Assembly: GCA_020436225.1 (NCBI GenBank)
Contig: JAGQYE010000103.1
Location: 1 to 37,977 of the forward strand
DNA: 37,977 bases
Direction: 5' to 3'
Source of the DNA: Bacteroidota bacterium
Lineage (GTDB): Bacteria > Bacteroidota > Bacteroidia > Chitinophagales > JADIYW01
Each line of letters opens with the position of its first letter. The first letter of the stretch is position 1. Shown piece after piece: positions 20,870-23,459 of the stretch. Made by a program: the position numbers and the translations under genes. Below the pieces are notes generated by a model, which was given only the letters and a program-made list of their open reading frames with translations, was not told the origin of the DNA and did not search any database.

Positions 20870-21027
20870 AGATACTTCTAGTTTGTGCTTCTTTTTTTGG
20901 ATTCAATGATCCTTACAAACTCTATTTTTATAAATTGATTTATTTTTGATATAAATCAACAAATTAACATTAATTAAAGTAGAGATTAATTATTTTTTTA
21001 AAAATTTGTAAGACAAAAAAGAATAAA
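20870..21027. other. Intergenic region, phoH to YHYH gene
   Basis: A 158-bp, very AT-rich gap. No gene, hairpin terminator with a strong stem, or repeat is visible; it probably holds the promoter of the YHYH-MORN-Sco operon, but no clear box pair was found. Confidence 0.4.
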
Positions 21028-21774
21028 ATGAAACTATTAAAAGGAATTCTAATTTTATTTTGCGCTAATTTCTTTATGGTTAGTTGCGATAAAGACAGCG
21101 ACAACTCGAAGTCTTCTGAAGTTCCCGCTGTATATAAAAAAATATATGGCGCAACTAGCATAACTTCTGATGGTTCTTATATCTACATAAAGACCAATGG
21201 AACACCGGATCATAAGAGTGTTTATTATCCAACAAGCAATAGTCTTTATGAAAATTTTTCAGGTACAACCTTTGGTGGCAATACATTTAATAAAAATCCA
21301 AATACTATTTCAACTAAGAATTATACTTTTAAAATTCCTTTAAACCCTAAAGAAGCTACTACGCATGAAGCAACTCCTTTGGGACCGATTGGTGTTTCCT
21401 TAAATGGAGTTCCATTTTTTAATCAGTATGCTGGACCCAATCAACCTTTAACCAACGAAGTTGTTTCTTTCGATCAATGGTGGGGTCACCCGGCTCAATC
21501 CGGCGATTATCACTACCATGTAGAGCCACTTTATTTAACTACAGTTAAAGCAACCGACTCTTCACTTTTAGGATTTTTGTTAGATGGATTTCCTGTTTAT
21601 GGTCCAAAAGAAAATGGTGCTACTATTCAAAATTCCGACTTAGATGATTATCACGGTCATTTTGGTGTTACAGCAGATTTTCCTAATGGAATTTATCACT
21701 ATCACATAACCGCAACAGACCCATATATAAATGGCAATGGATTTTACGGCACTGCAGGAACAGTTACGCAGTAG
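21028..21774 (+). CDS. YHYH-domain lipoprotein
   Basis: A 248-aa predicted lipoprotein with signal MKLLKGILILFCANFFMVSC (lipobox before Cys20). The YHYH domain fills the rest: YHYH at 161-164 (GDYHYHVEP) and again at 223-226 (IYHYHIT), plus DDYHGHFG (207-213) and LLDGFPVYGPKENG. The family has no firm role; its dense histidines suggest metal binding, which is inference. The gene overlaps the next by 44 bases, and a Sco-type copper protein follows, which fits a metal-related operon. Length and motifs look intact. Confidence 0.9.
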   Translation: MKLLKGILILFCANFFMVSCDKDSDNSKSSEVPAVYKKIYGATSITSDGSYIYIKTNGTPDHKSVYYPTSNSLYENFSGTTFGGNTFNKNPNTISTKNYTFKIPLNPKEATTHEATPLGPIGVSLNGVPFFNQYAGPNQPLTNEVVSFDQWWGHPAQSGDYHYHVEPLYLTTVKATDSSLLGFLLDGFPVYGPKENGATIQNSDLDDYHGHFGVTADFPNGIYHYHITATDPYINGNGFYGTAGTVTQ

Positions 21775-22333
21775 CTTTTTCCTTTTTTGTTTAGCATGCA
21801 TTTCATGTCAATCTTCCATGACAGACGAATCATCTTTACAACTTTTTAATGCTGACAATATTAACATACAAAACAAGAATGGTATTATCTATTTAAATGA
21901 ACAACCATTTTCCGGTAAAGTTTTTCAACTATCTCCTTTAACAAAAGATACTGTCGAATTGATTGGATATCTAAATGGAAAAGAACATGGAGAATGGAGA
22001 CATTATTATCCGAACAAACAAATAGAAGAAATTCGTTATTATGATAATGGTGATAAAATAAAAACCTTGACACGTTGGTGGGAAAATGGGCAAAAGCAAT
22101 TTTTTTGTACTTTCAAAGATGGTGAATATGATGGTGCTTTAACCGAATGGAATCGAGATGGACAAGTAGTTAGGGCTATGCATTACAAAAATGGCTATGA
22201 AGAAGGTAACCAAAAAGCATACTACAACAACGGAAAAGTTAGAAGTAATTACGTGATTATAAATGGCAAACGTAGAGGATTATTAGGAACTAAAAATTGT
22301 GTAAATGTATCCGACAGTATTTTTAAAAAATAA
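21731..22333 (+). CDS. MORN-repeat-like lipoprotein (YwqK-type)
   Basis: A 200-aa protein overlapping the YHYH gene by 44 bases in another frame. A lipobox-like CISCQSS at about residues 22-28 follows a hydrophobic segment (SSFFLFCLACISC). The N-terminus before it is odd for a signal peptide (MAMDFTALQEQLR); the true start may be Met3 or a non-ATG codon nearer residue 12. The rest consists of repeats of the MORN-like type: GEWRHYYPNKQIEEIRYYDN, DGALTEWNRDGQVV, EGNQKAYYNNGKVR. Such proteins are often annotated as YwqK-family. Function is unknown. It overlaps the Sco-like gene by 29 bases. Confidence 0.75.
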   Translation: MAMDFTALQEQLRSSFFLFCLACISCQSSMTDESSLQLFNADNINIQNKNGIIYLNEQPFSGKVFQLSPLTKDTVELIGYLNGKEHGEWRHYYPNKQIEEIRYYDNGDKIKTLTRWWENGQKQFFCTFKDGEYDGALTEWNRDGQVVRAMHYKNGYEEGNQKAYYNNGKVRSNYVIINGKRRGLLGTKNCVNVSDSIFKK

Positions 22334-22973
22334 GCTGATTTATGCTTGCCTAATGCTTGTTCTTTTATCTTGTAATAGAAAAGAAGAAACAAGTTTACCA
22401 TATTACAACACGCCTGATTTTACTCCTATTTTCATTACTAACGTCAAAGAAATCTCAAAAAAAATCCCACATAAAATCGGACATTTTTCGTGTACAGACC
22501 AAAATGGAAAAATAATTACTGATGCTACAATTGAAGGAAAAATTCACATAGCTAATTTCTTCTTTACGTCGTGTAATAGTATTTGTCCTTCGATGACAAA
22601 TCATCTAAAGAAAGCAAGTGCCATTTTTAAAAATGATAGTTCTATTATTTTTCTTTCGTATTCAGTTACACCTTGGATTGATAGTATTCCAAAGTTGAAA
22701 GCATATGAAGAAAACAATGAAATCAGCAATAAGAATTGGCATTTCTTGACCGGAAATAAAGCAGCTATTTATCAATTAGCACGAACTTCTTATTTTGCTG
22801 AAGAAGATTTAGGATTTTCGAAAGACAGCACCGATTTTTTGCATACAGAGCATATTTTACTCGTTGATAAAACAAAACGAATTAGAGGTATTTACAACGG
22901 CACACTTCAATTAGATATTGAACAACTTATTGCAGACATTCAACAATTAAAGAAAGAAGAACAAAATCAATAA
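22305..22973 (+). CDS. SCO1/SenC-family copper/redox lipoprotein
   Basis: A 222-aa thioredoxin-fold protein of the Sco family. A signal ending LLSC makes it a lipoprotein (mature Cys23). The copper-site motif is Cys90-N-S-I-Cys94-P (FFFTSCNSICPS), and the distal histidine is probably His183 in FLHTEHILLVD. Sco proteins deliver copper to the CuA site of cytochrome oxidase or act as thiol-disulfide factors. The first ATG at 22305 is used here, although signal hydrophobicity would also allow a start further in. It overlaps the MORN-like gene by 29 bases and is the last gene of the YHYH operon. Confidence 0.9.
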   Translation: MYPTVFLKNKLIYACLMLVLLSCNRKEETSLPYYNTPDFTPIFITNVKEISKKIPHKIGHFSCTDQNGKIITDATIEGKIHIANFFFTSCNSICPSMTNHLKKASAIFKNDSSIIFLSYSVTPWIDSIPKLKAYEENNEISNKNWHFLTGNKAAIYQLARTSYFAEEDLGFSKDSTDFLHTEHILLVDKTKRIRGIYNGTLQLDIEQLIADIQQLKKEEQNQ

Positions 22974-22991: not shown

Positions 22992-23459
22992 CTATTCAAT
23001 CCCACTTCTGATTTTATCTAAGATATGATTAAACTGCTTTAGTTCTTCTTCCGTTACATTAGAGTAATAGGCTGGCGGCATATCTCCTTCTAAAGCGATA
23101 TCAATTTTGCTTAATAATTCTAATCCTTTTTCGGTGATGCGAATATCAACTTGTCTCCTATTGTGTTCATTGAGTTCGCGCGTTACTAATTGTTTCATTC
23201 GCAATTTTTCTACTAAGCGAGTTGCATTCGACATTTTATCAATCATCCTTTCCGTTATCTGTGTCAGCATAACTGCATTAGGATATTGACCTCTAAGAAT
23301 TCTTAAAACATTATATTGTTGAAGTGATAAATCAAATTGTTTAAAAAATCGGCTTTTAATATTTTCCAACCAACCGGAAGTAAACAAAAAATTGACATCT
23401 GTTTTTATGAAAATGTTCTGAAATTTTTTTTGTTTAATTTCGTCTTCTATCGTCTTCAT
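22992..23459 (-). CDS. MarR-family transcriptional regulator
   Basis: A 155-aa winged-helix regulator. The DNA-binding part is visible in LSLQQYNVLRILRGQYP, LTQITERMIDKMSNATRLVEKLR and the wing LVTRELNEHNRRQVDIRITEKG; helices at both ends would form the dimer. MarR proteins usually repress neighbouring genes until a phenolic or other small molecule, or oxidant, is bound. Its target is not apparent. It lies 11 bases downstream of the DUF3467 gene on the same strand and converges on the Sco gene. Confidence 0.92.
   Translation of the reverse strand: MKTIEDEIKQKKFQNIFIKTDVNFLFTSGWLENIKSRFFKQFDLSLQQYNVLRILRGQYPNAVMLTQITERMIDKMSNATRLVEKLRMKQLVTRELNEHNRRQVDIRITEKGLELLSKIDIALEGDMPPAYYSNVTEEELKQFNHILDKIRSGIE

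Follow-up and report, generated by a model that had tools for sequence, protein, structure and literature searches.

Organization of the locus

The window (the whole stretch of 37,977 nucleotides that was analyzed) harbors three consecutive genes on one strand, whose products all start with a lipoprotein signal peptide. They are preceded by an intergenic region:

20870..21027, + strand: intergenic region from the phoH-like gene to the YHYH gene, 158 bp (from sequence)
21028..21774, + strand: YHYH lipoprotein gene, 248 aa (Pfam PF14240)
21731..22333, + strand: MORN_2-repeat lipoprotein gene (MORN), 200 aa (Pfam PF07661)
22305..22973, + strand: Sco lipoprotein gene, 222 aa (Pfam PF02630, SCO1-SenC)

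The ORFs occupy three different frames and overlap by 44 and 29 bases; the ORF and Pfam checks agreed in all these points with a preliminary description of the DNA. Since no other ATG, GTG, or TTG is present between position 21737 and the MORN lipobox, the YHYH/MORN overlap comprises 38-44 bases; start sites in the cassettes were computed, and exact overlap lengths are approximate. Close packing is typical of the whole cassette family: YHYH and MORN overlap or lie at most 10 nt apart in 60 of 67 loci, and the same applies to MORN and Sco in 66 of 67. A strict pattern recognizes the lipobox in 70/84 YHYH, 66/83 MORN, and 70/81 Sco proteins, and by alignment the lipid-carrying Cys is found in 81/83 MORN (C26) and 81/81 Sco proteins (C23). 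The three genes are presumably transcribed as one operon and might be translated in a coupled manner, as the preliminary description proposed, and the 158-bp gap 5' of YHYH is the likely site of its promoter; no promoter motif was demonstrated in 20870..21027. A phoH-like gene lies upstream of the cassette on the same strand as YHYH, and a convergent MarR-family gene (22992-23459) is located downstream. Oxidase or copper genes, for which the preliminary description had proposed to look nearby, were not seen in the window.

Conservation of the cassette in Bacteroidota

An alignment of YHYH proteins was used to scan approximately 85,000 species genomes, a procedure in which the hits are steered by YHYH, and 79 loci were returned. 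As far as the record names show, all of them belong to Bacteroidota, among others to the Flavobacteriaceae, Weeksellaceae, Sphingobacteriaceae, Chitinophagaceae, Spirosomataceae, and Hymenobacteraceae. Every locus that is not cut by a contig end has the genes in the order YHYH-MORN-Sco and on the same strand. In a second sample, which covered the phylum evenly with 198 Bacteroidota genomes, the cassette-type MORN served as anchor instead of YHYH. Thirteen such genes were present in 11 of these genomes; all 13 adjoin a YHYH gene and 11 of the 13 adjoin a Sco gene. One exception (G232) possesses a cassette without adjoining Sco and a cassette-like Sco on another contig. In the other (G216:C47:4313-4855, locus L158) the cassette YHYH contains several stop codons next to an intact MORN, and an arylsulfotransferase-like gene is found where Sco would follow. 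A conserved, order-invariant YHYH-MORN-Sco cassette thus exists.

YHYH, MORN, and Sco families are all common in Bacteroidota and close relatives share synteny, so that chance neighborhood or a frozen synteny block without shared function has to be considered. The survey contradicts this reading, which we regard as extremely improbable: the same gene order recurs across the phylum in differing surroundings with unrelated flanks, the phylum sample yielded the adjacencies given above, and host families are mixed in the Sco tree, as expected for a cassette moving as a unit. Such movement is suggested by this mixing together with the patchy distribution (11/198 genomes). Pairwise protein distances are correlated (MORN-Sco 0.76, YHYH-MORN 0.55, YHYH-Sco 0.44; 0 of 2000 permutations reached each value), a figure to which shared ancestry contributes. 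Classical copper genes are rare at cassette loci.

The neighborhood of YHYH and Sco, on which the preliminary description had built, holds for one subfamily. Cassette-type YHYH genes nearly always adjoin MORN and Sco, so that the refuting condition set there, YHYH rarely near Sco elsewhere, did not come true for them. The phylum sample contains 38 YHYH genes, of which 13 are of this type, and the other subfamilies are mostly without a Sco neighbor. YHYH genes outside Bacteroidota, seen on plasmid records, occur without Sco in varied contexts, comprising PEBP proteins, an RND pump with a two-component system, and a cytochrome oxidase operon. A YHYH-Sco link as a general rule for the YHYH family was therefore rejected. 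On a plasmid of Pseudooceanicola algae (L148), YHYH has a MarR gene on one side and the cytochrome c oxidase operon on the other; the window cassette is likewise flanked by a MarR gene.

The Sco protein and its clade

The Sco protein matches PF02630 with 77.6 bits (cut-off 22.8), is thioredoxin-like, and has 1on4 and 4hde as relatives in the PDB (E 5e-18). The copper site CxxxCP plus His, noted at the outset, is retained in every complete cassette Sco: C90 and C94 of the motif C90-x3-C94-P are present in 81/81 sequences and H180 in 79/81, the other two being incomplete. H180 aligns with a histidine of the Bacillus Sco (1on4), presumably the copper ligand of that protein. A tree was computed for 109 Scos, of which 79 come from cassettes and 30 were labelled other. 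Here the cassette sequences group in a single clade with a support of 100/100, apart from the other Scos and with host families mixed within the branch. The only row labelled non-cassette inside this clade (L134) proved to be a cassette.

The genome of the window encodes three Scos. One resides in a cytochrome oxidase operon elsewhere (C105), and no such operon is present in the window; the second is located two genes after the copper nitrite reductase gene nirK (TIGR02376, E 2e-106); the third belongs to the cassette. At the nirK locus (L156:2579-5461, G000:C78), three genes in a row encode a copper nitrite reductase that bears a cytochrome c domain at its C-terminus, an FGE-like protein, and Sco. 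Sco proteins pass copper to cuproenzymes, and antioxidant roles have been reported for them as well (PMC7558416). With copper enzymes beside the other two of the three Scos, YHYH is most simply regarded as the probable client of the third.

The YHYH protein

YHYH matches PF14240 with 91 bits (cut-off 25), carries its lipobox Cys at position 20, and has a mature domain without Cys. The histidine clusters that had first drawn attention to the protein resolve into two triads, H154/H162/H164 and H211/H224/H226. All six histidines, as well as E166, D149, D186, and D206, are invariant in 70/70 cassette members and represent candidate ligands. A profile alignment of residues 100-178 with residues 176-248 (hhalign probability 96%, E 2e-9) shows the domain to be an internal duplication, with D..GH and YHYH in each half. 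A core of D149, H154, YHxH 161-164, D186, D206, and G210 is shared by the 70 cassette proteins and all 16 readable distant members. Distant YHYH proteins, including those of cyanophages, keep the first triad and often have R, A, or F in the second. The first triad is thus the likely core site, the second being special to the cassette type and some other types. A six-His dinuclear site for the whole family was rejected, as long bacterial and cyanophage YHYH proteins retain the first triad only. An export signal for surface exposure, consisting of acidic residues after the lipid Cys, was weakly enriched in YHYH and is not claimed.

The AlphaFold (AF2) model of YHYH has a pLDDT of 89.9 and a pTM of 0.83. 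Foldseek retrieved no match in the PDB (best E 1.6), and neither the single YHYH sequence nor a 78-row profile found a relative in sequence searches of the PDB; structural matches to the model are confined to viral YHYH proteins. The cyanophage proteins (L153:2989-4710, L154:1417-3189) are encoded beside baseplate genes, possess the first His triad only, and show by eye a C-terminal alpha/beta-hydrolase-like domain.

Cys after the signal region is absent in 68/70 cassette YHYH proteins, and hence the Sco cannot act as disulfide reductase of YHYH. If both proteins cooperate, metal would be their likely currency, given a YHYH devoid of Cys and a Sco from a family of copper chaperones (PMC7558416); this favors a copper relay.

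The MORN protein

MORN matches PF07661 (MORN_2) with 45 bits (cut-off 29.6). Its AF2 model is nearly all beta and forms an extended sheet (pLDDT 88) followed by a flexible C-terminal tail (pLDDT 57-74), on which C190 is invariant in 83/83 sequences. In another reading, Sco, for which antioxidant roles have been reported (PMC7558416), would be a thiol protein that assists MORN with its single invariant Cys under oxidative stress, and YHYH would bind extracellular polymers or act on them as an enzyme. YHYH domains occur in phage baseplate-region proteins and, in cyanophages, fused to an alpha/beta-hydrolase-like domain, and several cassettes have sulfatase or arylsulfotransferase neighbors, DUF1501 proteins being neighbors too. 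Sulfatase-type neighbors are, however, limited to few loci, and the six invariant histidines, the metal-sensor module, and the DUF6702 proteins described below would be left unexplained, so that a role in polymer metabolism seems quite improbable to us.

Upstream sensor modules and extended loci

In about one quarter of the loci, an ECF sigma factor, a small anti-sigma-like protein, and a Metal_resist sensor resembling NccX/CnrX are encoded directly upstream of the cassette. An ECF sigma gene and a gene for a helical protein with one transmembrane segment (TM) precede it on the same strand in 18 loci, usually with a small one-TM protein in between. Both are enriched upstream on the same strand relative to elsewhere in the same loci (ECF sigma: 20/267 genes versus 8/813, p 2e-7; sensor: 18/267 versus 2/813, p 9e-10). 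The arrangement ECF, sensor, YHYH, YHYH, MORN, Sco was also encountered in a distant family of the phylum sample (G132, L160). Sensor proteins match Metal_resist (PF13801) in 16/20 cases (best E 1e-11) and have NccX (4clv) as top PDB relative, followed by Spy and CnrX. H74 and H125 are present in 20/20 sensors and C133 in 19/20.

In some loci, genes for a further YHYH, a DUF6702 protein, and a TonB receptor are present in addition. A DUF6702 protein was demonstrated to bind Ni with pM and Co and Cu with nM affinity via its N-terminal His (2025, PMC12537917), and this residue is kept in all ten aligned DUF6702 sequences from cassette loci. In two loci (L085:9880-12867, L092:12950-15931), the gene directly after YHYH encodes a TonB-dependent receptor with DUF6702 as an N-terminal fusion, a candidate metal-capture receptor; in another (L079:7190-8518), a single ORF comprises a DUF6702-like domain and a cassette YHYH domain. 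Sensor, DUF6702, and TonB receptor are restricted to a minority of loci and are absent from the window's genome, where PF13801 gave no hit, DUF6702 gave none at E 1e-6, and the ECF-sensor module is missing at the window locus. Regulation of the cassette must consequently differ there.

These neighbors bear on the main rival to the copper relay, according to which the cassette serves envelope metal stress or scavenging. YHYH would then be a metal buffer or capture protein (for Ni, Co, Zn, Cu, or Fe) and not a client, and Sco a redox partner keeping the metal or the MORN Cys reduced, with TonB uptake in the extended loci. The kinship of the sensor with the Ni/Co/Cd sensors NccX and CnrX, the pM affinity of DUF6702 for Ni (PMC12537917), and the TonB receptors and DUF6702-TonB fusions adjoining YHYH fit this reading. 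Yet the complete cassette Scos all retain the entire copper site, for which a function in thiol redox alone would have no need, and the TonB and DUF6702 parts are found in a minority of loci. On balance, we consider metal buffering or capture unlikely, though less so than a role in polymer metabolism. As the best-known relatives of the sensor sense Ni/Co and DUF6702 prefers Ni, the assignment of copper as the metal rests mainly on Sco. The initial idea of a metal-handling lipoprotein set has in this way gained from the sensor/ECF, DUF6702, and TonB neighbors, the dedicated Sco clade, and the copper enzymes beside the other Scos, whereas a copper gene in the window did not turn up.

Proposed function and comparison with known systems

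The reading we favor, with about even confidence, is a copper relay in the cell envelope that runs from a dedicated Sco to YHYH and employs MORN as an adaptor or thiol partner. The lipoprotein Sco would act as a dedicated metallochaperone with YHYH as its client; the latter, secreted as a lipoprotein and rich in His, would receive copper from Sco and be either a copper protein or a copper-holding protein. MORN, whose beta-sheet is rigid and whose flexible tail bears the invariant Cys, might bridge Sco and YHYH or join the thiol/copper hand-over. In many lineages, an ECF sigma factor freed by a membrane-anchored NccX/CnrX-like metal sensor would control the operon; in the organism of the window, which lacks this module, control would be exerted by another route. 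The stronger version of this proposal is possible, if somewhat doubtful: YHYH would represent a novel copper protein class whose fold is absent from the PDB. Its two His triads would add up to six histidines, as many ligands as a dinuclear copper site has; the protein would obtain its metal from its own Sco via the MORN adaptor, and ECF sigma and metal sensor would switch it on in many lineages.

Several known systems resemble the cassette in part. With pairs of Sco/SenC and a cuproenzyme client (aa3/cbb3 oxidases, the CuA site of NosZ, or the nirK-linked Sco of the same genome) it shares the Sco fold, CxxxCP plus His, the lipid or membrane anchor, and a presumed client adjoining. It differs in that an oxidase or known copper enzyme is missing, the partner is YHYH, the Scos form a separate clade, and MORN always stands in between. 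The CnrYXH/NccYXH systems of Cupriavidus resemble the quarter of loci with an ECF sigma, a small one-TM protein, and an NccX/CnrX-like sensor upstream, but the cassette loci have YHYH-MORN-Sco downstream instead of an RND efflux pump, their sensor carries a conserved Cys, and the module is absent in the window. The DUF6702 metal sequesterases/anglerases, secreted and with a mature N-terminal His, adjoin or are fused with YHYH or the TonB receptor in extended loci; they are no part of the window cassette, and their description does not mention YHYH (PMC12537917). YHYH proteins (PF14240) of cyanophages, giant viruses, and other bacteria share the fold (by Foldseek) and the first His triad with the cassette type, but have no Sco or MORN partner, their second triad often reads R/A/F, and phage copies are fused to a hydrolase-like domain.

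No role has been assigned to YHYH proteins, which are distributed over bacteria, diatoms, cyanophages, and giant viruses. A literature search for YHYH yielded no functional paper, mentions of the protein assigning no tested function, and a description of the YHYH-MORN-Sco cassette was not found in the literature searched. The component families are already known, and the fixed set would belong with Sco chaperones that have a dedicated partner; there is a reasonable chance that YHYH represents a new metalloprotein fold. The partnership with a copper chaperone, the metal-sensor module, and a neighboring family with proven metal binding provide YHYH with a concrete and testable function. If it is a copper protein, the small number of known cuproprotein folds would grow by a new one, and Sco chaperones would gain a non-respiratory client.

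Away from the cassette, an ORF with a repeated peptide (TDAESSTRDSAGKE) spans positions 86-433 of the window, near the contig edge, and is probably a translated repeat element, not a gene.
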